64,000 bases of DNA from Onthophagus taurus (taxonomy: Eukaryota; Arthropoda; Insecta; Coleoptera; Scarabaeidae). The notes beneath the pieces were generated by a model that was not told the DNA's origin, did no database searches, and saw nothing but the letters and a program-made list of their open reading frames with translations. Positions 1 through 63,955 of this stretch are shown here, one piece after another; position 1 is the first letter of the stretch, and each line of letters starts with the position of its first letter. Made by a program: the position numbers and the translations under genes. The stretch is from positions 7,501-71,500 of the forward strand of contig NC_091966.1 in NCBI RefSeq assembly GCF_036711975.1, in the 5' to 3' direction.

Positions 1-86
1 TTTAACGAGGTCGGGGAAAATCTGCAAAACAGACATCCGGTCTGGGGTGTTGGTCGACCGGATAGTGTGGGGTTGGAGCCCATACT

Positions 87-101
87 TGGGTCTCCGACCC
101 A
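87..101 (-). other. Predicted 3'UTR stem-loop of the LINE
   Basis: The bases TGGGTC and GACCCA flank a 3-nt loop and give a perfect 6-bp stem. It follows a GGGGTTTTTAGTGGG stretch on the minus strand. From memory, a similar TTTTAGTGGG hairpin is common in 3'UTRs of R1-type and related LINEs, where the 3' RNA is recognised by the reverse transcriptase. Function here is inferred. Confidence 0.45.
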
Positions 102-264
102 CTAAAAACCCCTTTCCTCTTATCCCACACGAAGGGCTGGAACTACGCTACCGCGTTTTGACCATCGGCCCGCCGCATGAACTGACTTCCTCCATACTCT
201 CCAGTTAAATCAGCCTACAGGACTGTCTTTCCCTTTCCGTTCAGGATCACCAAGAACAAATCAA

Positions 265-676
265 ACACACGAGAGACTTTTACAATTCAAAATAGTTATA
301 TTCCATACCGGGACGAGGGGAGGCCCATACGACCTCCCCTCTCTTCTTCCTCCTTCTCCAGCTCACGAGCCCTTCTCCAATGTGGACACACCAAAAGGGG
401 GGTCAAAACCATTGACATAAAACAAAACATACGAGAGACTTTTTACTATTCAGTTACTTATCACTTACCGGGACGAGGGGAGGCCCATAAGACCACCCCT
501 CTCTTCTTACTCCTTCTCCGGCTCACGAGACCTTCTCCAATGTGGACAAAGCAAAACGGGGGCCAAAACCATAGACATAAAACAAAACATACGAGAGACT
601 TTTTAATATTCAGTCACTTATCGCTTACCGGGACGAGGGGGGCCCATAGGACCACCCCTCTCTTCTTCCTCGCTCA
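265..676 (-). repeat. 160-bp tandem repeats in the LINE 3'UTR
   Basis: Three adjacent copies of a unit of about 160 bp lie in the 3'UTR. The word ACGAGAGACTTTT marks each copy; its GAGAGAC core starts at 271, 433 and 593, giving spacings of 162 and 160. Each copy also holds ACCGGGACGAGGGG and a matching CCCCTCTCTTCTT, so each can fold. The third copy is cut short at about 676. Copies differ by a few bases. Confidence 0.85.
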
Positions 677-701
677 GGAGTTCTGGATTCAGGCCAAGAC
701 T

Positions 702-3425
702 TTACCTTTGTTCCTCTATCCCTTCCCTCTGTCTTTGTCTCTCCTCTCTCTCTTTCTGGGTCAAAACGTCACCGACAAAGGTAGCAATAAATTTCCATTT
801 GTCCTCACTGTCTAGCATGTGACCCACCGTATTTTCTGGCGTGATCGCCGCCCCTATACATTCCTCGACGCTTGCCCTATCTGCCCTCCATCTGGGACAC
901 TTATAAAACGTGTGCTCGGCGTCATCGCACACTGCGCAGTAGTCACAAGTGCTCAACTCCCTTTTTCTGTACTTGCAAAGGTACTCGTTAAAACATCCAT
1001 GGCCCATAAAAAACTGACTCAGATGGAAGTCGACATCCCCCCATCTTCTATTCGTCCAGCTTTTAAGGTTGGTGATCAGCCTCTTCGACCATCTCGCTTT
1101 TCCGGTGTCAGCTCTCCATCTTCTCTCCCATTCCTCCAGTATCTTCGTCTCAGTCCCTTGCTTGTCATAGCCTTCGTCCCAGGCAGCCGCCCTTCTCTCT
1201 ATCATGAGATCCATAGGCAACGAGCCACCCACCACCTGCAGAGCTTCTGTTGAACAGGTTTTATAAGCACTGATCGTTCTAATTAAGATAGATCTCTGTA
1301 TCCTTGCTAGCTTTATCACGTTTTTTTTGACGCTGCAGGCATCTCTCCAGGCTCTACACGCATATAGAATCTGCGAGTATATCGTCGCACCAATCAGCTT
1401 TCTTTTGGCTTCTCTCGGGCCAAAAGTGGATCCCATAACTCTATTTAAAGCCTGCGTTGTTTTTCCGGCCTTCTCTACAATTTTATCGACGTGGGTACTC
1501 CATCGGAGATCCGTCGCTATCATGACACCCAGGTATTTTAGGGACTCCTGCATGTGAATCACAACATCTCGGACCTTTAGGGTTATCTGTCTGGCACCCC
1601 TCCGGCTTCTCAGCATAACCGCCTCTGTCTTTTCGGGGGCTATCTCGAGACCCATATTCTCCATAGACTTCACAACTTCATTTAGAACAGACTGAGATCT
1701 CGTCTGCATCTCTTCCTCATCCCAACCGGAAACCACGATGGCAAGGTCGTCCGCGTACGCGATGAACCTTGTGTCGCCCCTTATCGCCCTGTTCTGTAGC
1801 AGTTTGTCGAAAAATATGTTCCAGAGCAAAGGGCCAAGGACGGACCCCTGTGGAACCCCTCTCGACATCTTATAACTAGATCCCTCATATTCTATGTACC
1901 GATCACTTAAATAGGCTTGTATAATCTTAATTAGGTAGGGGGAAAACTTTTTCCTTCTCACTGCATCAACAATTTCCGCCCATGGTGCAGTCCCAAAGGC
2001 GTTTCGGACATCCACTGTAATCATCAGACATTTTTTCTTCCTACCCCTCCTAAATTTATCGCACATTTTGGCTTCTCTAATCACCTCCTCTATCGCGTGG
2101 ACCGTCGACTTTCCGCTGGTGAACCCGTACTGATCGCACGAAAGCCCACCCATCCCATTTAATTCTTCGTTAATTCGTGTCTTTATAATCGACTCAAAAA
2201 CTTTGCCGAAGGTGTTTAAAAGGCATATCGGCCTGTACTTTTTTGGCTCAATATTCCCCGGTTTCTCTATTAAAACCAATCTGCCCCTCTTCCAGCGCGC
2301 AGGGAAAATTCCCCCTTTCAATAGTATATTATACATTTTGGCTAGCTTCGTCGCCGCTATTGTCGCAACATCTTTTGTGATTTCTGGGGTTATACCATCT
2401 GGTCCAGCGGCCTTTCCCTTTTTGAGGTTTTTTATAATCGCGGATACCTCTTCTTCCGTAACCTCTGCAAAGCTTCCCTCTTCCACCAGGAGCCCCTTAG
2501 TATCCCATGTGACTCCCTGGCCCTCCGGAAAGAGCTCCTTAATCAGTTGAGGTATTGTCTCGGGATCAATATCCGTCCTGCGGCAATTCCCCGTTTTCTT
2601 AATCGCGATTTTGTAAGCATCACCCCATACATGCTCGTCTAATTTATTGCATAGTGCTCTCCAAGCGTCTTTTTTCGCCTTCCTGATAGTATCTCTCAGG
2701 CTCTTTTTTGCTTTTATATAAGTCTCGGCAGCATTTGTCCTCTCCCTCTCGTTGCCCCTTCTTCCATTCTCCCTAGTCGCTACTCTGCGGCATCTGTTTG
2801 CCCACTCTCTCGCCCTCTTAGCATCCTCATTCCACCAATAGAGTTTACCCTTGCTTGTTTTTGCGCGTCTCTTTTTTCCGTATGCCTTATCGCATGATTT
2901 TGCCGTTGCATTACTGAGCCAAATAGGGTCAAAGATCGCTTGGTGTTCTGCTCTTCTAAGAAATTCAGTTTGGAAACGTTTCAGTTTGTCCTCTCTTCTC
3001 TTCCACTTAGGTTGGCTCGTGTCATACTGCTTTTCAATCCTTCTATCACTGTTCAGACGAAAAGTGATGTATAAGTGGTCACTAAGATTCTCAACGTCTA
3101 CCACTTTCCAATCTTTTATAGCGCCAACCAGGTCTGTGGAGCACATGGTAATGTCTATCGTGGACTCCTGCTTCCCCCTCCTCCATGTAGGGCATGTTCC
3201 ACTGTTTATAGCGACTAGGTTCATTTCCGCCATCCATTCACATATATGTCTGCCCCTTTCGTCTTGCTTCTTAGAACCCCACTCGGCTGACTTTGCGTTG
3301 AAATCGCCTGATAAAACGAAGTTCTCCCCTCTACTCCCAGCCATGCCTTCTGCTATTCCGTTTAGCTTGTTCCGAAAATCTCTGATTGGTTCATTTGGTG
3401 TTAAGTAGCAACCCACTATCACCCC
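702..3425 (-). CDS. LINE ORF2 fragment: endonuclease (partial) and reverse transcriptase
   Basis: About 908 codons are open. The partial AP-like endonuclease shows GDFNAKSAEWGS near 3280-3313 and the catalytic SDH near 3075. The reverse transcriptase follows with YRPICLLNTFGKVFE, motif A (TVDVRNAF), motif B (RGVPQGSVLGPLLWN) and the catalytic YADD near 1740-1760. The C-terminus has a zinc-knuckle pattern (CDYC, then H and C in AEHTFYKC) near 885-955, typical of R1-type ORF2 proteins. The enzyme nicks target DNA and reverse-transcribes the element RNA. There is no native start: in this frame the open reading simply continues through the TTGGG array up to 6488. The part before 3425 is therefore repeat read-through rather than protein. 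The missing N-terminus should make this copy unable to cut its target. Confidence 0.88.
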   Translation of the reverse strand, partial: GVIVGCYLTPNEPIRDFRNKLNGIAEGMAGSRGENFVLSGDFNAKSAEWGSKKQDERGRHICEWMAEMNLVAINSGTCPTWRRGKQESTIDITMCSTDLVGAIKDWKVVDVENLSDHLYITFRLNSDRRIEKQYDTSQPKWKRREDKLKRFQTEFLRRAEHQAIFDPIWLSNATAKSCDKAYGKKRRAKTSKGKLYWWNEDAKRAREWANRCRRVATRENGRRGNERERTNAAETYIKAKKSLRDTIRKAKKDAWRALCNKLDEHVWGDAYKIAIKKTGNCRRTDIDPETIPQLIKELFPEGQGVTWDTKGLLVEEGSFAEVTEEEVSAIIKNLKKGKAAGPDGITPEITKDVATIAATKLAKMYNILLKGGIFPARWKRGRLVLIEKPGNIEPKKYRPICLLNTFGKVFESIIKTRINEELNGMGGLSCDQYGFTSGKSTVHAIEEVIREAKMCDKFRRGRKKKCLMITVDVRNAFGTAPWAEIVDAVRRKKFSPYLIKIIQAYLSDRYIEYEGSSYKMSRGVPQGSVLGPLLWNIFFDKLLQNRAIRGDTRFIAYADDLAIVVSGWDEEEMQTRSQSVLNEVVKSMENMGLEIAPEKTEAVMLRSRRGARQITLKVRDVVIHMQESLKYLGVMIATDLRWSTHVDKIVEKAGKTTQALNRVMGSTFGPREAKRKLIGATIYSQILYACRAWRDACSVKKNVIKLARIQRSILIRTISAYKTCSTEALQVVGGSLPMDLMIERRAAAWDEGYDKQGTETKILEEWERRWRADTGKARWSKRLITNLKSWTNRRWGDVDFHLSQFFMGHGCFNEYLCKYRKRELSTCDYCAVCDDAEHTFYKCPRWRADRASVEECIGAAITPENTVGHMLDSEDKWKFIATFVGDVLTQKEREERQRQREGIEEQR

Positions 3426-3426
3426 G

Positions 3427-4410
3427 AACCCAACCCAACCCAACCCAACCCAACCCAACCCAACCCAACCCAACCCAACCCAACCCAACCCAACCCAACC
3501 CAACCCAACCCAACCCAACCCAACCCAACCCAACCCAACCCAACCCAACCCAACCCAACCCAACCCAACCCAACCCAACCCAACCCAACCCAACCCAACC
3601 CAACCCAACCCAACCCAACCCAACCCAACCCAACCCAACCCAACCCAACCCAACCCAACCCAACCCAACCCAACCCAACCCAACCCAACCCAACCCAACC
3701 CAACCCAACCCAACCCAACCCAACCCAACCCAACCCAACCCAACCCAACCCAACCCAACCCAACCCAACCCAACCCAACCCAACCCAACCCAACCCAACC
3801 CAACCCAACCCAACCCAACCCAACCCAACCCAACCCAACCCAACCCAACCCAACCCAACCCAACCCAACCCAACCCAACCCAACCCAACCCAACCCAACC
3901 CAACCCAACCCAACCCAACCCAACCCAACCCAACCCAACCCAACCCAACCCAACCCAACCCAACCCAACCCAACCCAACCCAACCCAACCCAACCCAACC
4001 CAACCCAACCCAACCCAACCCAACCCAACCCAACCCAACCCAACCCAACCCAACCCAACCCAACCCAACCCAACCCAACCCAACCCAACCCAACCCAACC
4101 CAACCCAACCCAACCCAACCCAACCCAACCCAACCCAACCCAACCCAACCCAACCCAACCCAACCCAACCCAACCCAACCCAACCCAACCCAACCCAACC
4201 CAACCCAACCCAACCCAACCCAACCCAACCCAACCCAACCCAACCCAACCCAACCCAACCCAACCCAACCCAACCCAACCCAACCCAACCCAACCCAACC
4301 CAACCCAACCCAACCCAACCCAACCCAACCCAACCCAACCCAACCCAACCCAACCCAACCCAACCCAACCCAACCCAACCCAACCCAACCCAACCCAACC
4401 CAACCCAACC
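3427..4410. repeat. Pentanucleotide array (CCCAA)n / (TTGGG)n, candidate telomeric repeat
   Basis: 984 bp of uninterrupted pentamer, about 197 copies, with no base change seen. On the minus strand it reads TTGGG, one base from the insect telomere repeat TTAGG. The C-rich strand runs 5' to 3' from the left edge towards the genes, the orientation expected at a left chromosome end. It abuts an R1-clade LINE at 3426 and the 17-bp array at 4411. It could also be an internal satellite or an old telomere relic. Confidence 0.95.
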
Positions 4411-6494
4411 GCCAACCCAACCCAACCGCCAACCCAACCCAACCGCCAACCCAACCCAACCGCCAACCCAACCCAACCGCCAACCCAACCCAACCGCCAA
4501 CCCAACCCAACCGCCAACCCAACCCAACCGCCAACCCAACCCAACCGCCAACCCAACCCAACCGCCAACCCAACCCAACCGCCAACCCAACCCAACCGCC
4601 AACCCAACCCAACCGCCAACCCAACCCAACCGCCAACCCAACCCAACCGCCAACCCAACCCAACCGCCAACCCAACCCAACCGCCAACCCAACCCAACCG
4701 CCAACCCAACCCAACCGCCAACCCAACCCAACCGCCAACCCAACCCAACCGCCAACCCAACCCAACCGCCAACCCAACCCAACCGCCAACCCAACCCAAC
4801 CGCCAACCCAACCCAACCGCCAACCCAACCCAACCGCCAACCCAACCCAACCGCCAACCCAACCCAACCGCCAACCCAACCCAACCGCCAACCCAACCCA
4901 ACCGCCAACCCAACCCAACCGCCAACCCAACCCAACCGCCAACCCAACCCAACCGCCAACCCAACCCAACCGCCAACCCAACCCAACCGCCAACCCAACC
5001 CAACCGCCAACCCAACCCAACCGCCAACCCAACCCAACCGCCAACCCAACCCAACCGCCAACCCAACCCAACCGCCAACCCAACCCAACCGCCAACCCAA
5101 CCCAACCGCCAACCCAACCCAACCGCCAACCCAACCCAACCGCCAACCCAACCCAACCGCCAACCCAACCCAACCGCCAACCCAACCCAACCGCCAACCC
5201 AACCCAACCGCCAACCCAACCCAACCGCCAACCCAACCCAACCGCCAACCCAACCCAACCGCCAACCCAACCCAACCGCCAACCCAACCCAACCGCCAAC
5301 CCAACCCAACCGCCAACCCAACCCAACCGCCAACCCAACCCAACCGCCAACCCAACCCAACCGCCAACCCAACCCAACCGCCAACCCAACCCAACCGCCA
5401 ACCCAACCCAACCGCCAACCCAACCCAACCGCCAACCCAACCCAACCGCCAACCCAACCCAACCGCCAACCCAACCCAACCGCCAACCCAACCCAACCGC
5501 CAACCCAACCCAACCGCCAACCCAACCCAACCGCCAACCCAACCCAACCGCCAACCCAACCCAACCGCCAACCCAACCCAACCGCCAACCCAACCCAACC
5601 GCCAACCCAACCCAACCGCCAACCCAACCCAACCGCCAACCCAACCCAACCGCCAACCCAACCCAACCGCCAACCCAACCCAACCGCCAACCCAACCCAA
5701 CCGCCAACCCAACCCAACCGCCAACCCAACCCAACCGCCAACCCAACCCAACCGCCAACCCAACCCAACCGCCAACCCAACCCAACCGCCAACCCAACCC
5801 AACCGCCAACCCAACCCAACCGCCAACCCAACCCAACCGCCAACCCAACCCAACCGCCAACCCAACCCAACCGCCAACCCAACCCAACCGCCAACCCAAC
5901 CCAACCGCCAACCCAACCCAACCGCCAACCCAACCCAACCGCCAACCCAACCCAACCGCCAACCCAACCCAACCGCCAACCCAACCCAACCGCCAACCCA
6001 ACCCAACCGCCAACCCAACCCAACCGCCAACCCAACCCAACCGCCAACCCAACCCAACCGCCAACCCAACCCAACCGCCAACCCAACCCAACCGCCAACC
6101 CAACCCAACCGCCAACCCAACCCAACCGCCAACCCAACCCAACCGCCAACCCAACCCAACCGCCAACCCAACCCAACCGCCAACCCAACCCAACCGCCAA
6201 CCCAACCCAACCGCCAACCCAACCCAACCGCCAACCCAACCCAACCGCCAACCCAACCCAACCGCCAACCCAACCCAACCGCCAACCCAACCCAACCGCC
6301 AACCCAACCCAACCGCCAACCCAACCCAACCGCCAACCCAACCCAACCGCCAACCCAACCGCCAACCCAACCGCCAACCCAACCCAACCGCCAACCCAAC
6401 CCAACCGCCAACCCAACCGCCAACCCAACCGCCAACCCAACCGCCAACCCAACCGCCAACCCAACCGCCAACCCAACCGCCAACCCAACCCAAT
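4411..6494. repeat. 17-bp and 12-bp higher-order variants of the TTGGG array
   Basis: From 4411 to 6348 a 17-bp unit (GCCAACCCAACCCAACC) repeats 114 times in perfect register; marker positions 4411, 5040, 6315, 6332 and 6349 all fit. On the G-rich strand the unit is TTGGG, TTGGG, TTGGCGG (5+5+7). From 6349 to 6494 the pattern changes to mostly 12-bp units (TTGGG, TTGGCGG) with two 17-bp units among them, then ends in unique sequence. All frames are free of stop codons, which explains the long artificial ORFs here. Confidence 0.95.
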
Positions 6495-6571
6495 TATAGC
6501 GTGAAGGAATGTGAGGTAAGGTTAGTTTTGTTTACAAACATTAATTATACCATGAAGTTTTCTTTGGCAAT

Positions 6572-6976
6572 TATACTCTGTTTTTAAACCAGGAGAAGTA
6601 TTTTAAATTTGTCACCAGATTGACCTTGCACGTGATTGGTTGAATGCGAGGAAGGTTCACACACAGGCAATTTTGAATTTGAAGGTTAGGTTATTGACAA
6701 TTCGACAGTTTCGTGTCATTATTGTAAATTTTGTGTTCTTAAACCCTGTTCTTTATTATATTTTGAAATAAATACACTCATAACTTCAATGTTAATTTGT
6801 ATGTTTAGTGTTGACGATAACAAACGAAAATAAATACAATAATAAGTAAATAAATAAATAATAATAATTATTAATTTAAATTTACCGCCAAAATATCTAG
6901 TGATATTTTCTGGTGATTTTTCCTAGTGTAAATCTGACTTTCGCGTTTACTCCTCTTGGTTTAAAAACAGAGTATA
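6572..6976 (+). mobile_element. TA-flanked MITE, family A, copy 1
   Basis: A 405-bp element begins TATACTCTGTTTTTAAACC and ends in the inverted match GGTTTAAAAACAGAGTATA. A second copy in opposite orientation lies at 57316-57683 and shares the interior, including a stretch around CACGTGATTGGTTGAATGCG. Terminal TA suggests a Tc1/mariner-type non-autonomous element. No coding capacity is seen. Confidence 0.85.
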
Positions 6977-7101
6977 GAACAAGAGCATTCTTTCTTGATC
7001 TTTTAGTGGAAACGAAAGCGCATTTTTATGGTTTACACTACACCAAAATATAAAGGAGCAAAAATGAGAACCAAGAATTAGAATTCTTGCACATGGATAT
7101 T

Positions 7102-7388
7102 TAGATCAGCCGAACGAATGCTCATTCGACTAGAACACCGTTAGAACACAACAACGCTTTGAAGAGACCGCTCCGATGAGCGAGCACGTCCGAACACGCA
7201 AGAAGGCTCTAAGGAATGGTTCGCACGCTCTAGTGCCGTTTACATCAAGCGATCGCACATTCCTAGTATATTCCATAGAATCTTTGGAAACGCAGACAAA
7301 ACAACGAAAGAATGCTCTACATCTGTTTACACAAAAAGAATATGATAAAGTAGGGATAGAATGAGCATTCGCTCGTCTGATGTAGATC
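7102..7388. mobile_element. Candidate MITE with imperfect terminal inverted repeats
   Basis: The segment CGAACGAATGCTCATTCG near 7111 is matched in inverted form by GAATGAGCATTCGCTCG near 7359, inside longer imperfect arms that include GATC words on both sides. A clear target duplication is not visible. The short open frames inside look accidental. Confidence 0.5.
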
Positions 7389-8133
7389 GGCCCTTAGCAA
7401 CAGCTGAGACACGACCGCGCGTCGTCGTTCAGACATCGCGCGGCACGCCGCGTGCTGCTGCCACGCTTGACTGCTGCGCAATGTCTGGACACACCTTTAA
7501 AATAGTTTTAATTTTATTAAGTTTTATTTTTAGATTTATTCTAAGACAATAAGAAATAAACCTGTCGCACCCTATACTTTTGTAATCAGAAAAAAAATAA
7601 CGAATTTAATAAGCGAATAATCAGTGGTTATTTCCATTTAAAAAAACGAAAAAAAATTTTGTCATCAAATTCTCTGTAGAAAAGTGTCCATATAATATCG
7701 TAGTTATAATACTTTACCTATAATAATAACCAAGATAATTGCACTTGCCGGTTTTAGGATATTTTCACTTTTGGATTCTAGGAGAAAAACAAAAAACGAT
7801 AGCGCTTTGAGGTTTTCGACATTGAAATTTATTTAAAAAAAGAGATAGAGACATGTAAGGTACTTTTTTTCTAACTTTTATAGTTTCCGAGATAGCTTAT
7901 TCGGACATGGAATTTGACCAGCTTGTACAATAAATAAGAAGAAAATAAATAAATAAATAAAAAGAAAACGACGTAAAGTTACAAAATTATTATTGACTGT
8001 AACCTTAATATGGCTTTTTTTTTTAACTTATTTAGAAAAAATTGCAAACATTTTTTGTTTTCTTTTAATGCATATTCAGCTATTATACTTTTACTATTCA
8101 GCCACATTTATTTGCACCATTACACCAACAATC
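7389..8133. other. Noncoding stretch before the secreted-protein gene
   Basis: The first 110 bp are unusually GC-rich and contain GCGCG and GCTGCTGCCACGC words. They resemble, in inverted orientation, a GC-rich patch near 60165-60300, including a TGTGTCCA word, so both may be pieces of one transposon family. The rest is AT-rich DNA in which I see no gene. The promoter of the gene starting at 8134 must lie here. Confidence 0.4.
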
Positions 8134-11878: not shown

Positions 11879-12723
11879 ATGGAAAACGGGCATACAAATG
11901 AATCAAAAGAGACAATTTCATATTCTCCTATAATAGTAGCCCTAATAACGTTGTTAATAACTATTGGTAAGTTTACCAGATGTCATATCAAAATATAGAA
12001 TTATTAAAAATATTTTTTTTAGTTTTATTCTTCATTTACAAAGCCAAACAATCATCTAAAAGGACTGTTTTAATAACAGGCTTATGCAATTCAGGTAAAA
12101 CTCTATTATTTACAAGGTTGGTTCATCAGAAATTTGTGGATACCTATACATCCATGAAAGAGAACACCGGTAATTATTTAATCAATAATTTATCCTTACG
12201 TATTGTTGATATTCCTGGACATGAGAGGGTTAGAGACAAATTTTTTGAAAAATACAAGAAAGAAGCTAGAGCTTTGGTTTATGTAGTCGATTCAAGTCTG
12301 ATTGAAAAGGAAGTTCGTGACGTTGCTGAATATTTGTACAACATTTTATTGGAACTTGGGGCAATGAATAATAAAGTGAAAGTATTGATTTTGTGCAATA
12401 AACAAGACGTAGCGTCATCAAAGAATAGTATGGCTGTCAAATGTATATTAGAAAAAGAATTGTTAGTGATAAAATTATGTTTATTATGACTTTTAATATT
12501 ATCATTTTTTAGGACTACTTTACAACGCACTAAATCAAGTCAATTAGATTCTGTTGATCCAAAAGTAAAAAAAGGTGACAGTTTCTTATCAGAAGGAGAA
12601 GATTTTCACTTTTCTTTATTATCACCTATTCAAATAGAATTTGCGAATGGTTTTGCTACCAATGAAACTAAAGATTCTATAAATGTTGATGAATTGGAAA
12701 AGTGGTTGGTCAAAGTAGCTTAA
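11879..12723 (+). CDS. SRPRB: Signal recognition particle receptor subunit beta
   Basis: Model: exons 11879-11966, 12023-12461 and 12513-12723; 738 nt, 245 residues. It is the membrane-anchored small GTPase that holds SRP receptor alpha on the ER for co-translational targeting. The N-terminus has one membrane segment (about residues 17-37, spanning the first intron: VALITLLITIGVLFFIY). The GTPase motifs follow: P-loop GLCNSGKT, ENTGNY in switch I, DIPGHERVR as G3 and NKQD as G4. After the second intron the sequence TLQRTKSSQLDS matches the family. The usual SRPRB layout and length are kept. Introns are 56 and 51 nt with GT and AG ends. It diverges from PNPO and converges on RNPC3. Confidence 0.95.
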
Positions 12724-14749: not shown

Positions 14750-15745
14750 ATGTTGGGTGAACGACGAAATAACTCTAAATTAAATCAAGTACATTTTGTG
14801 ATTGCCGGTGCAACCAGTGGAGCAGTGACTCGAGCTGTTTGCCAACCATTGGACGTAGTAAAGATCAGATTTCAATTGCAAGCTGAACCAATATGTTACC
14901 ATTCAATATCCAAGTATAAATCTGTTACCCAAGCTGTAATATTAATTTACAATGAAGAAGGTGTTAAAGCGTTTTGGAAGGGACACATACCAGCACAGTT
15001 ATTGTCGATTGTGTATGGATGTGCTCAGTTTGGAACCTACGAACTTTTTATGAAATCTTTTGGTCCTTTATTTCATCAACAGTTTAAACCTGTTAAAAAC
15101 TTTATTGGAGGATCGATTGCAGGTAACAATAACATTATGTACACAATAAATATACATCATTTATTTATTCTTTCTTTAATAGGAGGTGTTGCTACCGTGG
15201 TATCATTTCCTTTTGATGTAATTAGAACTCGATTAATTGGACAATGTGATAAATTAAGGGCGTATAGAAGCATTATTCACGCATTTGTCCACATTTATAA
15301 AAATGAAAATTTTAAAGCATATTTTAGAGGATTAACCCCAACCATTGTACAAGTAGCACCTCACGCTGGATCTCAATTTATGTTTTATAAACTTTTTGAT
15401 AGAGCTTATAAAAAAGTAGTTGGAATAGAGGAAACTAGGTATTCGGCAACAAGTTGCTTAATTGCTGGAAGTCTTTCTGGATTTTGTGCGAAACTTGTTA
15501 TTTATCCATTTGATTTTGTAAGGAAAAGAATGCAAGTGCAAGGTTTCCAAAGGTATAGAAGAAATTTTGGAAAGGGGTACAGTTATAATGGAATGATGGA
15601 CGCTTTTGAGAAAACAATCAAACAGGAAGGGTTTAACGGTTTATTTAAAGGACTTACCCCAAGTCTTTTAAAAGCGGTTTTTACAACTGCCCTACATTTT
15701 AGTACATATGAGTTTGTTTGTCAATATCTCGAAGAATATAATTAG
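14750..15745 (+). CDS. SLC25A19: Mitochondrial thiamine pyrophosphate carrier
   Basis: Model: exons 14750-15122 and 15183-15745; 936 nt, 311 residues. It is a six-helix mitochondrial carrier of the inner membrane that imports thiamine pyrophosphate for matrix dehydrogenases. The three carrier repeats carry the signature P-x-D-x-x-K/R motifs: QPLDVVKIRFQLQ, FPFDVIRTRL and YPFDFVRKRMQVQ. The opening FVIAGATSGAVTRAVCQPLD, the GHIPAQLLSIVYGCAQF block and the GLTPSLLKA block fit the TPP-carrier subfamily better than other SLC25 members. The 60-nt intron (15123-15182) has GT and AG ends, is a multiple of three and has no stop, so an unspliced message would insert 20 residues at the second repeat; the family alignment (IAGGVATVVSFPFD) shows it is removed. 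Confidence 0.93.
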   Translation: MLGERRNNSKLNQVHFVIAGATSGAVTRAVCQPLDVVKIRFQLQAEPICYHSISKYKSVTQAVILIYNEEGVKAFWKGHIPAQLLSIVYGCAQFGTYELFMKSFGPLFHQQFKPVKNFIGGSIAGNNNIMYTINIHHLFILSLIGGVATVVSFPFDVIRTRLIGQCDKLRAYRSIIHAFVHIYKNENFKAYFRGLTPTIVQVAPHAGSQFMFYKLFDRAYKKVVGIEETRYSATSCLIAGSLSGFCAKLVIYPFDFVRKRMQVQGFQRYRRNFGKGYSYNGMMDAFEKTIKQEGFNGLFKGLTPSLLKAVFTTALHFSTYEFVCQYLEEYN

Positions 15746-22907: not shown

Positions 22908-25763
22908 ATGAATATAACATCAGCGGCTGGGATAATATCCCTTCTCGACGAACAAAGTGTCGAATTAAAATCTTTCGCCCTGAAGAAGCTTAACACCGTT
23001 GTGGATGAGTTTTGGCCGGAAATCTCTGAGGTCATCGAGAAAATTGAAATCCTATACGAAGATAAAAACTTCGATGATCACGAGCTAGCGGCTTTAGTGG
23101 CAAGTAAAGTTTATTACCATTTAGGTTCGTTTGATGATTCGCTTATTTATGCCTTGGGAGCAAGAAATTTATTTGATGTTAATTCACGTACAGAATACGT
23201 TGAAACAATTTTATCAAAATGCATCGATTTTTATATTCAACAACGCGTCGCTCTTGTCGAAAACAGCCCAAAAGCCAAACCTATTGATCCTCGATTGGAA
23301 GGCGTTGTTAATAGGATGTTTGAAAGATGTCTCGAAGATGGCCAATATTGTCAAGCTGTCGGTTTAGCTTTAGAGACCAGGAGGATGGATATTTTTGAGG
23401 TAGCTGTTACTCAATCCGATGATGTGGTTGGAATGTTAAATTATGCTTTTGATGTAACATTAAATTTAATACCAAACTTAAAGTTTAGAAATACTGTATT
23501 ACGTTGTCTGGTTAATTTATATCAAGGGTTAGAAACTCCCGATTACGTTAATATGTGTCAATGTTTTATATTTTTGGATGATGCTGCATCCGTAGCTTCA
23601 ATCCTTGATAAATTAATTCAAGAGAAAGAACAAAGTAAATTAATGGCTTATCAAATTAGCTTTGATCTGTACGAATCTGCTACACAACAATATCTTGAAA
23701 GAGTTTTTAACACTTTAAGATCTAACGCTCCTTTACAATGTTTTGCCGATGAAAAAAAAGTAGAAAAAACTGAATCCGCTGCTGGTGATGCCGATAGTAA
23801 GGAAACTAAAGATAAACCTTCCATTGAATCATTAACTGAAGAACAAAAAGAGCGTCAAAAAAACTTGGATCAACTCTACAACATATTATCCGGTAAAGTA
23901 ACTTTAGAGTTACATCTTCAATTTCTTGTTCGTAGCAATCACGCCGATTTGCTCGTTTTAAAATACGCTAAAGAAGCGAGTAGAGTTAATATTTGTCACA
24001 CTGCGACCATCATTTCGAACGCTTACATGCACAGCGGTACTACAAGTGATCAATTCTTAAGGGATAACCTCGAATGGTTAACGCGCGCCACAAATTGGGC
24101 TAAATTCACCGCCGTTGCATCACTTGGTGTCATACATCGTGGTCACGAACAGGAGGCTTTATCTCTCCTTCAAAGTTATTTACCTAAAGATGTTGGGGCA
24201 AATTCTGGTTACTCCGAAGGTGGTGCGTTGTATGCTCTGGGGTTAATCCACGCAAATCACGGCGCGAATATATCCGATTACTTATTAAATCAACTTAAGG
24301 AGGCTAAAAATGAAATTATAAGACACGGATGTTGTTTGGGTCTTGGTTTGGCCACGATGGGTACTAATCGTCAAGATGTTTACGAACAATTAAAGTTTAA
24401 TCTTTATCAAGATGACGCTGTAACTGGGGAGGCTGCTGGAATTGGAATGGGTTTGGTTATGTTGGGATCAAAAAACACTTCGGTCATTGAAGATATGGTT
24501 TCGTACGCGCAGGAAAGTCAACACGAAAAAATTCTGCGCGGATTAGCTTTGGGAATATCGTTCATTATGTATGGAAGACTTGAAGAAGCTGATACTTTAA
24601 TTGATGAACTTTTAGATAGTAAAAATCCCATATTTAGAAGAGCTGGGGCTTTTACTATTGCCATGGCTTATTGTGGAACCGCTCAAAATAAAGCTATAAG
24701 AAAGCTTTTACATATCGCCGTTTCTGACGTCAACGACGACGTTCGTCGCGCTGCTGTAACATCGTTAGGATTTCTCCTTTTTAGCACTCCGGAACAATGC
24801 CCGAGCGTTGTTTCTTTATTAGCAGAAAGCTACAACCCTCATGTACGTTATGGAGCTGCTATGGCTTTGGGAATCGCTTGCGCTGGTACCGGTTTACGAG
24901 AAGCAATCGCCATTTTGGAACCGATGATCAAATTCGATTCAGTCAATTTCGTTCGTCAAGGAGCTTTGATCGCCACGGCAATGATTTTAATCCAACAAAA
25001 CGAACAAACTTGCCCTAAAGTGCCGCTATTTAGACGTTACTACTACGAACTGACCACCAACAAACACGAAGACGTCATGACTAAATTCGGAGCTATTTTA
25101 GCCCAAGGAATCATTGATGCTGGTGGAAGAAACGTAACGCTTTCATTACAATCTCGAACCGGCCACACCAACATGTTAGCTGTGGTTGGTACCCATATTT
25201 TCACCCAGTATTGGTATTGGTTCCCATTAACTCATTGTTTATCTCTTGCTTTTACCCCCTCCTGCGTTATTGCTTTAAACGCCGACTTAAAGATGCCTAA
25301 ATTGGACTTCAAATCCAATGTTAAGCCGAGCATGTTTGCTTATCCGCCACCATTAGAAGAGAAGAAACGCGAGGAACGTGAAAAGATTTCGACGGTAGTT
25401 TTGAGTAGCGTTGCAAGGCAACGTAAACGCGATAATGAGAAAAAGCAGCATCATAAAGTCGAAGAGATGAAAGTGGACGAAGAAAAGAAGAAGGAAGAAC
25501 CGAAAAAGAAAGAACCGGAACCAACGTCCGAGACATTAAATAATCCGGCTAGAGCGTTAAGGGGGCAATTAAAGTATGTTAGTATCGTTGAAGGTTGTCA
25601 ATATGTTCCAATGAAAGATGTTTCGATTGGCGGAATTATTATGGTTCGCAATACAAAACCTGGCGAAGAAGAAATAGTTGAGTCTGTTTCTGTTATGGGC
25701 CCGAAAGTTGCTGAAGAAAACGAACCTGAACCGCCAGAACCATTTGAATGGACTGATGATTAA
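22908..25763 (+). CDS. PSMD1: 26S proteasome regulatory subunit Rpn2
   Basis: One uninterrupted frame of 951 codons, close to the usual length of about 950. Rpn2 is the largest scaffold subunit of the 19S base; it binds the ATPase ring and recruits the ubiquitin receptor Rpn13. The N-terminus ([20 protein letters not shown]) is conserved. The central toroid of proteasome/cyclosome repeats spans roughly residues 400-760, with alternating A-x-G-L/I-x-x-x-G units such as [29 protein letters not shown] and [18 protein letters not shown] charged lysine/glutamate insert follows near residue 820. The C-terminal tail [13 protein letters not shown] is the Rpn13-binding peptide. No intron interrupts the coding sequence, unlike most neighbours; a 5'UTR intron cannot be excluded. 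Confidence 0.98.
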
Positions 25764-33526: not shown

Positions 33527-34156
33527 TTATCGCGTCTTTTTCTTGCACATTTTCGCCAATTTTCTCCGTTTCAATATCATCTCGTAGAGAACTTCGAGTC
33601 CTTCGTGCAAACCGTCGCCGGTTATCGCACAGGCTGGTTGAACGTGCCACAAATGTCCACTTGTCGACGAACCAGCATTTCCACCCAACTCTAATAAACC
33701 GAGAAGTTTTTCCAATTCCCTCGGTTCCCTTGCACCAGGGAGGTCCTGTTTGTTAGCCAAAACTAAAATCGGAACTCCGGTATTTTCCGGTGATTTAACT
33801 GTCCTTAAAAGCTCCATTTTCGCTTCTTCCATCCTTTCAACGTCGACACTATCCAAAACGAACACTATCCCATCGGTACATCTTGTATACGATTTCCAAA
33901 GTGGTCTTAATTTCTCTTGACCGCCCACATCCCATACCAAAAAATTAATCCCCTTTGCTTTACCTAAAGTACCTTTGACCTTTTCGCAGTTAAAGCCAAT
34001 TGTAGGCACTGTGTTTAAATATTGGTCGAATTTTAAACGGTATAGGGCAGTGGTTTTTCCTGCCGAGTCTAAACCTAGCATTACCACATGTAACGTTCCC
34101 TGTCCGGATGGAAGGGCGTCTAAAAGAGAAGCATTTTTTCCCATATTAGCCCCCAT
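33527..34156 (-). CDS. ARL4: ADP-ribosylation factor-like GTPase 4
   Basis: One frame, 209 residues. ARL4 proteins are Arf-family small GTPases at the plasma membrane and nucleus that recruit cytohesin/Arf-GEFs. Motifs are all present: myristoylation Gly2 (MGANMG), P-loop [17 protein letters not shown] in switch [17 protein letters not shown] in switch [10 protein letters not shown] and the closing ACAITGDG. The basic tail ([14 protein letters not shown]) is the ARL4 nuclear/membrane targeting signal and separates it from other ARLs. The linker with [11 protein letters not shown] is longer than usual. A second ATG four codons in (MGKNASLL) also offers a Gly2. A strong acceptor (TTTAATTTTCAG) ends at 34340, so the coding exon probably starts at 34339 with a 183-nt leader. 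Confidence 0.95.
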
Positions 34157-62300: not shown

Positions 62301-63955
62301 ACATCTAATTAAGTAATGGTAACAATTTTAATTTTAACTTTCTTACACATACAATAATTGTATTCCATGTTTTGCTTATACTCATTCGCAAAGAACATCA
62401 ATGTTTTGACCAAAAATTTTGACTCAACACCTCACTAAACTCCACCCATTCCGATCTTAATCTTTATTATTATTATTATTGCTGCCAGGCTGAGGGGAGC
62501 GGCTCCTCTCGTTACCGCGACCTATAAGAACTATTGTAACTTTAGCCCTCCAAAAGTTTAGGGCAAATGTAGGTCCTTGATGAACCTTAGTATTGCCCTG
62601 AGGTCTTGAAACTTTATGTCGGTAGGTGTCAACAGAGTTTTACCGACAGTTTTGTGTCTTAGACGGCCTCTGGCGACGCAATTGCATAATATATGTTCAG
62701 CTGTTTCTGACTCGTCGTTGCAAAGTTGACAAGTCTGATCCTCAGCTTGTCCAATGTAGAAGAGGTGGTATTTTAGGGGCGCATGGCCTGTCAGGTAACC
62801 TGAGAGCGTTCTTAGATCCCCTTTGCTGAGGCATAAAACCTCTTTGGTTTTGTTTTGCGACGGAGTTATCATACTCTTGGCTTGTCTGTGACCTGGAAGT
62901 TCTTTCCAGCGTAAGCCTACCTTTGAGACCTCCCAACTGTTGATTATTTGTTTTAGGTGGCTTTTTTGTAGTCCACAACCAGGTTGGGGTCCAATGAAGA
63001 GCGTGTTTGCTGCCTCTCTGGCCAGCTTGTCCGCCTTCTCATTGTTCATAATGTTGCTGTGACCTGGAACCCACCATAGGGTAACATCATTGCCCCTAGC
63101 GAGTTCTCTCAGGTTGTGGGTACACTATCTGATCAGTGCAGAGTCACACATGTAGGCCTGAATTGCCTTTAAGGCGGCCCGACTGTCTGTGAAAATGTTT
63201 ATGGATGCACCTTTCTGTCCCTTCTGTAGGTTCAAGGCGGTGCAAAAGTTTATAACAAGAACTTCTGCTTGGAAAATTGTTATGTCCAAGCTGAGGGGCA
63301 GTTTAATGTGGCTATTTGGTCCACTGATGCCCATACCTACTCCGGATCTAACTGTCTTTGAAGCATCGGTGTACCAGGCTAGGGCTCCTCTTTTTAGTTG
63401 AGGCCCACCCTTCGGCCAATCATCCATGCTTCTAAATATGACCTTATAGGGCTGGTTGAAATTGTATTCTGTTGGTATAAGGTCTGTTTTAATTTCAATC
63501 AGGTGATTTAGACATGGCACCTTGAGGATTTCGAGGTGTCCTCTGAGGTTACCCTGCATCAACTTGAGGATCTTAATCTTAAACACAGTATCAATAAATA
63601 AGAAAAATATTAAAAAAAAATACTTTAACAAGCTTAGAACATAATAATATAAATGTTGCTATCTAATTTTAAATGACATGTACCTATATCTTTTTTCATC
63701 ATCATTTTCTACTCTTACTTTTAACAACAACTTGAATATTATATTTCACAGCTGAATTTTCTTCTGAACATCTATATTCACCAGAATCATTTTTAGTAAC
63801 ATTCTCCAAAAACAACGAGCCATCCTCAAGCGTTATGAAAGGGGGCTTCTCGGAAATATCTCTAGTATCCCTTTCCCACATAATCCCATTGCTTTGATTT
63901 AGAGGACATTCAATGGTAATATTCTGATAAATATCCACATATTTTGTGTCAATAG
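59317..63955 (-). CDS. Ig-FN3 single-pass membrane protein (3' part of gene)
   Basis: Model: exons 63719-63955, 61769-61941, 61584-61713, 61175-61315 and 59317-59480, joined in phase; about 280 residues, N-terminus beyond the right edge. An Ig domain comes first, with Cys in ITIECPLN, Trp in GIMWERD and the DSGEYRC motif. An FN3 domain spans two exons (TPPPALPFYVHPS, YLIWQLNGTGGYP, KLEPNTTYAFRMWAGN). A membrane helix follows (IWIIAVAIVMGTLTVLGLGT), then a short cytoplasmic tail of about 60 residues ending NTVVQPRIS. Several N-x-S/T sites lie outside the membrane. The layout is that of neural cell-adhesion or guidance receptors, but I do not recognise the orthologue. The last-but-one exon ends at a strong GTAAGT donor; a GT three bases earlier is an alternative. 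A LINE sits in the intron between the Ig and FN3 exons. Confidence 0.85.
62462..63610 (-). mobile_element. I-like LINE fragment with RNase H domain and TAA-repeat tail
   Basis: A 5'-truncated LINE inserted in an intron of the Ig-FN3 gene, in the same orientation as that gene. It keeps the RNase H domain and the C-terminal zinc-knuckle part of ORF2, a short 3'UTR and a tail of AAT/TAA repeats (62464-62480). A TAA-repeat tail and an RNase H domain are features of the I clade; Loa-type elements are the alternative. Confidence 0.8.
62558..63610 (-). pseudogene. LINE ORF2 C-terminal part: RNase H and zinc knuckle
   Basis: RNase H motifs occur in order: WYTDASKT with the first Asp, FQAEVLVI with the Glu, FTDSRAALKA with the second Asp, and PGHSNIMNNEKADKLAREAA with the final His/Asp block. 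Further on, CQLCNDESETAEHILCNC is the C-x2-C...H...C knuckle. One TAG codon (63125-63127) interrupts an otherwise single frame between the second Asp and the PGHSN block; no frameshift is needed. The reverse transcriptase and endonuclease are absent, so the copy is not functional, though the single stop suggests a fairly recent insertion. Confidence 0.8.

Follow-up and report, generated by a model that had tools for sequence, protein, structure and literature searches.

Most insect telomeres, whether built on the canonical or on another motif, are regularly interrupted by specific retrotransposons (review, PMC12036569). SART inserts at TT^AGG in the G-rich strand, whereas the target of TRAS is the other strand, CCTAA; for SART1Bm, a change of A to C in the target, offered as (TTCGG)35, abolished insertion, TTGGG being outside the set of targets tested in that paper (PMC7265360). 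Telomeres of TTGGG have been found in several insect orders, including those of Nineta flava, Apoderus coryli, and others, and in N. flava SART and TRAS were not found (PMC12564400). The scarabaeoid beetle Anoplotrupes stercorosus, from a family related to that of Onthophagus taurus, has terminal TTGGG as judged by Bal31 and FISH, and (TTGGG)n has been reported from database sequence in O. taurus, Pachysoma striatus, and Canthidium sp. (PMC8233369). For O. taurus, then, the motif has been published before. The terminal pentamer of the array described here is the same as that of A. stercorosus and of the published O. taurus sequence, and what is added to these reports is a location of the repeats at scaffold ends, together with a description of the inserted elements and of proximal arrays of variant repeat. 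Among the titles and abstract openings on TTGGG with SART that were surveyed, which do not cover Lukhtanov and Pazhenkova 2023, no TTGGG-inserted element is described in a beetle.

The window, by which we mean the whole stretch of 64,000 nucleotides that was analyzed, corresponds to C1:7501-71500 in the O. taurus assembly, and its start is not a scaffold end. A C-rich repeat array, far above chance, spans 3427-6493 of the window on the plus strand, 10.9 kb away from the end of the scaffold. An unbroken (CCCAA)196 at 3429-4408 makes up 980 bp of pure repeat, and from 4409 inward the array is a higher-order repeat made of CCCAA and CCGCCAA units. Over the whole array we counted 438 CCCAA and 125 CCGCCAA units; the gap preceding a CCGCCAA (n = 125) was exactly two CCCAA in 116 cases, one CCCAA in eight, and the 196-unit run in one. 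Toward the tip, C1:2501-7500 reads N, and C1:1-2500 is (CCCAA)n from base 1 with some one-base variants, CCAA and CCCCAA, that are absent from the window array.

The earlier note had recognized the repeat array and its orientation, with the C-rich strand reading 5' to 3' inward from the left, and our analysis bears this out. It had described 3 kb of perfect TTGGG-type repeat at 3427-6494; the array is there, but it ends one base earlier, it is perfect only for the 980 bp named above, and its other 2 kb or so are mostly a 17-bp variant. The higher-order repeat and the retrotransposon beside the array had been overlooked, and the scaffold tip lies outside the window, with C1:1-7500 distal to it. 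Our preferred reading, to which we give a probability of about 0.8, is that the array is an inner piece of the telomere at the left end of C1 in O. taurus, that the telomere repeat is TTGGG, and that a TTGGG-targeting element has inserted between the array and the tip. The features of the window are collected in Table 1; scanning the window for tRNAs and Rfam families gave no matches.

Table 1. Features of the window, with positions counted from its first base
Feature	Position	Strand	Remarks
5'-truncated SART-like non-LTR retrotransposon inside the TTGGG array	1-3426	-	5' side meets the array after TT (3427-3428); 3' end/poly(A) start at 3-1
ORF2 remnant of the element, 907 codons plus stop	702-3425	-	C-terminal part of APE-type endonuclease, reverse transcriptase (YADD), C-terminal CX2CX7HX4C motif
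Tandem repeat in the 3' UTR of the element	306-671	-	Period 160 bp, 2.3 copies
Pure telomere repeat	3427-4408	.	196 perfect CCCAA units from 3429 (TTGGG on the minus strand)
Proximal variant telomere repeat	4409-6493	.	17-bp higher-order unit (CCCAA)2-CCGCCAA; 12-bp units near the inner edge
First subtelomeric DNA beyond the array	6494-7000	.	Starts directly after the array
SRP receptor beta	11980-12489	+	Pfam
Mitochondrial carrier	14750-15745	+	Pfam
Proteasome RPN2	22908-25763	+	Pfam
ARF-family GTPase	33527-34156	-	Pfam

The assembly has 290,825,966 bases in 33 contigs, and its nine scaffolds of more than 10 Mb give 18 large-scaffold ends. We read the left ends of 20 of the 33 contigs (10 kb each) and the right ends of 13 (1 kb each), with C21-C33 outside the set. 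TTGGG runs up to the last base of the sequence analyzed at seven of the 18 large-scaffold ends (C1L, C2L, C5L, C8L, C1R, C6R, and C7R, with L for left and R for right), and all seven of these terminal arrays have telomere orientation. Another two ends have TTGGG within about 3 kb of the tip, C11L from base 217 and C11R at a junction 3.0 kb inward, which gives C11 arrays near both of its ends. C6L, C7L, and C10L (3 of 18) have N at the tip, and the remainder of their first 10 kb is without TTGGG. No run of three TTGGG was found at six of the 18 ends, namely C3L in the 10 kb read and C2R, C3R, C5R, C8R, and C10R in the 1 kb read at each, and this, like the three N tips, counts against the telomere reading. 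The sole large scaffold with terminal arrays at both ends is C1, where the two are reverse complementary, CCCAA at the left and TTGGG at the right. Near-pure terminal repeat extends over 5.1 kb at C2L and 6.7 kb at C8L, which exceeds the 300-400 bp listed as a minimum array length for insect telomeres in PMC12564400; three others of the five marks listed there, terminal location, one motif throughout, and reverse-complementary opposite ends, are also seen in O. taurus. The longest scaffold is published at 44.245 Mb (PMC12902608), some 5 kb more than the C1 sequence analyzed, and both the last-base status of C1R and the blank at C3R may stem from trimming.

Among the 15 ends of smaller contigs that were read (11 left and 4 right), TTGGG was found at one, C16R. 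In this stretch (C16:3241156-3242155, L039) the plus-strand TTGGG degenerates toward the scaffold end into other sequence, which is opposite to the other ends and was counted against the telomere reading; the array is perhaps interstitial or part of an inverted piece. Interstitial TTGGG, with at least 10 starts (11 listed, one of which is the base of the right telomere of C6), was also counted against that reading.

Genome-wide, (TTGGG)5 had 3155 + 3658 matches, and a control with the reversed pattern is uninformative for this motif, which reads identically when reversed. The three matches of (TTAGG)5 overlap in one internal 35-bp tract at C3:12.2 Mb, and the reversed-pattern control gave 11, so the three are not above control; a 20-bp TTAGG tract is present at C9:4413-4432. 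(TCAGG)5, (TGAGG)5, and (TAAGG)5 had zero matches in the genome, and these motifs were rejected. Because TTGGG is terminal at several scaffold ends and the (TNAGG)5 alternatives are nearly absent, TTGGG is very probably the telomere repeat of O. taurus. In the assembly, the count of TTGGG against TTAGG and TCAGG that the earlier note had called for came out on the side of TTGGG, terminal at 7 of 18 large ends, with (TTAGG)5 at a single internal tract and (TCAGG)5 nowhere. That note had left a choice between TTGGG as the telomere repeat of the species and the array as a subtelomeric or internal relic, and there is something in each: TTGGG is terminal at those seven ends, yet this particular array is proximal, separated from the tip by an element, and variant over its inner two thirds.

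The scaffold-end arrays might also be assembly artefacts and TTGGG an ordinary satellite. The one-base variants CCAA and CCCCAA, seen in C1:1-2500 but missing from the window array, could reflect poorer consensus quality and would agree with this, as would the six large-scaffold ends without the repeat in the stretch read. We find the explanation hardly credible, however, given the telomere orientation of seven out of seven terminal arrays, the reverse complementarity of the two C1 ends, the single register in which elements are inserted (see below), and the Bal31 and FISH support for TTGGG in a related family (PMC8233369).

At several ends, pure repeat lies distally and a homogenized variant repeat proximally. 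The variant unit is (TTGGG)2-TTGGCGG at C1L; an identical 17-mer, (TTGGG)2-TTCGCGG, at C2L, C8L, and C11R; a 22-mer with TCGCGGG at C7R; a 22-mer with TTGCGGG at C11L; and a 21-mer with TTGCGG at C5L. A GCGG core is common to all seven variant repeats, of which those at C1L, C2L, C5L, C8L, and C11L were read unselected and those at C7R and C11R were picked up by a pattern that requires GCGG. Five of the six ends read unselected have a GCGG variant; the exception is C6R, which opens with 18 TTGGG (some units degenerate), followed by an element, and is without a GCGG variant repeat. With the GCGG-requiring pattern, pure-to-variant transitions were found in seven places, five within 12 kb of an end and two inside chromosomes. 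That C2L, C8L, and C11R have one 17-mer in common points to a shared seed or to exchange between the ends. A strict 17-bp period would be more readily explained by tandem amplification than by telomerase, and the 17-bp units may go back to a mutated repeat that telomerase had ceased to renew and that was amplified locally in tandem.

Telomere-adjacent variant repeats with local homogenization, higher-order units, and end-specific patterns have been described in Arabidopsis thaliana (PMC11406999). The beetle ends resemble these in having variants beside canonical repeats, local homogenization, and end-specific patterns, but organism and motif are different, and the beetle variants have the GCGG core (two of the seven found via a pattern containing GCGG). 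At the left end of C2, inward of the 17-mer array, there is a further tandem repeat with CAATTCGCAACCGCAACCCGCAATACACAACCCTAAA-like units (about 7220-8050 and 9130-9250 of L010).

Much of this layout could also be read in another way, with the window array as an interstitial telomere relic or a subtelomeric satellite outside the working telomere. The distance of the array from the scaffold end, its higher-order inner two thirds, and the element between it and the tip would all be in keeping with a relic or satellite, and so would the interstitial TTGGG starts and the two internal pure-to-variant transitions. We nevertheless consider this very improbable: the left end of C1 has TTGGG from base 1, a like passage from pure to variant repeat is found at four other scaffold ends within 12 kb of the end, and the array is cut off from the tip, as far as the sequence was read, by an inserted TTGGG-targeting element.

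That element ends at 3426 of the window, beside the TT of the array on the element's own strand. Its ORF2 remnant matched the Pfam families PF14529 (1.5e-21) and PF00078 (2.6e-36). The best PDB sequence match of the endonuclease part was the TRAS1 endonuclease (1wdu, 1.3e-14), ahead of R1Bm, and the best PDB matches of the reverse transcriptase (RT) part were LINE-1 and R2. A longer relative was found at the left end of C11 (about 2121-8656 of L019), with an ORF1 of 813 aa and an ORF2 of 1029 aa, the latter 43% identical to the window ORF2 over 900 aligned positions. The window element is 5' truncated, because its ORF2 alignment starts at residue 135 of the longer relative's ORF2. The C11 relative has the SART set of domains: an ORF1 with CCHC knuckles (two, from a pattern match alone, with no Pfam match) and an ORF2 with APE endonuclease, RT, and the C-terminal cysteine motif. 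We take the combination of CCHC knuckles, endonuclease, RT, and cysteine motif to mark the R1 clade, and these motifs and the endonuclease match suggest that the window element belongs in it. The 3' terminus of the element reads ...cagattttcccc(g/a)acctcgtt-A(n), as in copies whose poly(A) joins GGGTTGGG. In the window, the final bases ...acctcgttaaa match the 3' ends of other copies that enter poly(A) and then GGGTTGGG, and the element's own 3' junction is N. Elsewhere in the window, at 62558-63631 on the minus strand, there is a frame with a weak zf-RVT match under the curated cutoff; it is presumably RNase H-like and probably the tail of another non-LTR element.

Junctions between poly(A) and the repeat were searched for in the whole genome. 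The A10-GGGTTGGGTTGGG junction was found at 19 sites. Thirteen lie no more than 50 kb from a scaffold end (seven at C6 right, three at C11 left, one at C11 right, and two at C16 right), and at all 13 the poly(A) tail points to the tip. The other six are internal to chromosomes, which was counted against the telomere reading. The opposite-strand junction of the TRAS type, A10-CCCAACCCAACCC, had no match genome-wide, and TRAS-type insertion in the C-rich strand was rejected on these grounds. When the pattern admitted any of the five phases, 18 distinct sites resulted; 16 had TT^GGG and two had a changed base before the repeat. On the 5' side, the junction followed TT in all six cases listed (phase-free filter, with element starts limited to CCCC, TCCC, and CCGC). 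Non-LTR elements thus sit in the arrays with the 5' end after TT and the poly(A) before GGG.

This is the SART insertion rule in a TT^GGG register, on the G-rich strand, with the tail toward the tip and A replaced by G; for the window element itself the 3' junction falls in N. SART and the beetle elements are alike in an ORF2 with APE endonuclease and RT, in the poly(A) tail, in insertion at TT^(A/G)GG of the G-rich strand, and in a tail that points to the tip. The beetle elements differ from SART1Bm in having TTGGG as the target, and the likeness is one of register, orientation, and domains. TRAS1 provides the best PDB endonuclease match to the window element, but TRAS inserts in the C-rich strand, and no such CCCAA junction was present in the beetle genome.

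The 3' end of the window element was used as a query to find related copies. The 40 best matches (40 of 77 candidates scored) were the window copy, nine of the known poly(A) junctions, 20 internal copies that were fetched, and 10 that were not. Inspected by eye, six of the 20 fetched copies are followed by at least two TTGGG, four by a weak TTGGG-like tract, and 10 by neither, some of these 10 showing no clear poly(A). TTGGG specificity is strong for the telomeric copies and, because 10 of the 20 fetched have no TTGGG tract, partial for the related internal copies. The last 60 kb at the right end of C6 (C6:33114487-33174080) have seven SART-like 3' junctions within the last 50 kb, four of which are separated from the start of the next element by no more than 4 to 10 TTGGG units. 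Judged from the junctions, in the minor part of this stretch that was read, the right end of C6 is close to a retrotransposon-built telomere.

If the array is an inner segment of the C1 left telomere, as we prefer, telomerase with a TTGGG template would add the repeat, and the elements would enter it by target-primed reverse transcription. Nicking by the element endonuclease would fall between CCC and AA of the C-rich strand and expose a CCC end, from which the poly(A) tail would be copied. The window element would be one such 5'-truncated insertion, which would have split the telomere into a distal part, of which C1:1-2500 is seen, and the window array. Since SART1Bm tolerated no A-to-C change at the base that is G here, element specificity presumably shifted with the telomere motif. 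The elements would then have re-evolved their specificity for TTGGG, and, judged from sequence, they are a plausible candidate for a SART-like variant with a new target.

In Scarabaeoidea, searches for TERT frequently come up empty, and the gene seems to be gone from several derived subfamilies; the losses named are in Dynastinae, Rutelinae, Cetoniinae, and Hopliini, and the main text of that study mentions neither Scarabaeinae nor Onthophagus (PMC13023368). In O. taurus, the profiles PF12009 and PF17984 gave no TERT match, and both were silent in 14 of 14 control genomes and hence give no ground for claiming absence. A Tribolium TERT query, used without a known-TERT genome as a control, gave nothing convincing and only weak RT-core matches (73 of 314 candidates scored, 40 matches listed, best 36 bits). 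The best of these, at C7:22.56 Mb (L063), has several short frames and looks to us like a Penelope-like element, and with its 36 bits it was rejected as TERT.

A further explanation would do mainly or wholly without telomerase, with the enzyme weak or lost and the TTGGG arrays kept by recombination and TTGGG-targeted retrotransposition, as proposed for derived scarabs. It is in line with the lack of a convincing match to PF12009, Tribolium TERT, or PF17984 (the family profiles being silent in all 14 controls), with the seven element junctions at the right end of C6, and with the local amplification shown by the higher-order repeats. We regard it as quite improbable, however. Several tips are nearly pure TTGGG, as expected from telomerase; family profiles that detected TERT in 0 of 14 control genomes and a query that scored 73 of 314 candidates say little about absence; and the published losses concern Dynastinae, Rutelinae, Cetoniinae, and Hopliini, with Scarabaeinae and Onthophagus unnamed in the main text (PMC13023368). 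One could go a step further and propose that, in this scarab, SART-like elements were re-targeted from TT^AGG to TT^GGG along with the telomere and now do a real part of telomere upkeep, as an intermediate stage before a telomerase loss like that reported for derived scarabs, in which case telomerase may already be reduced or absent. We think this extension unlikely.

The O. taurus elements offer a clear case of an element target site that tracks a change of the telomere motif, with G in place of the A that, when replaced by C, puts an end to SART1Bm insertion. The junction is unambiguous in TTGGG, where A(n) followed by GGG cannot be confused with the tail. As the superfamily is being mapped for telomerase loss, the order of motif change, element re-targeting, and telomerase loss becomes testable. 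Ordinary genes lie near the telomere in the window, encoding RPN2, a mitochondrial carrier, SRP receptor beta, and an ARF-family GTPase.
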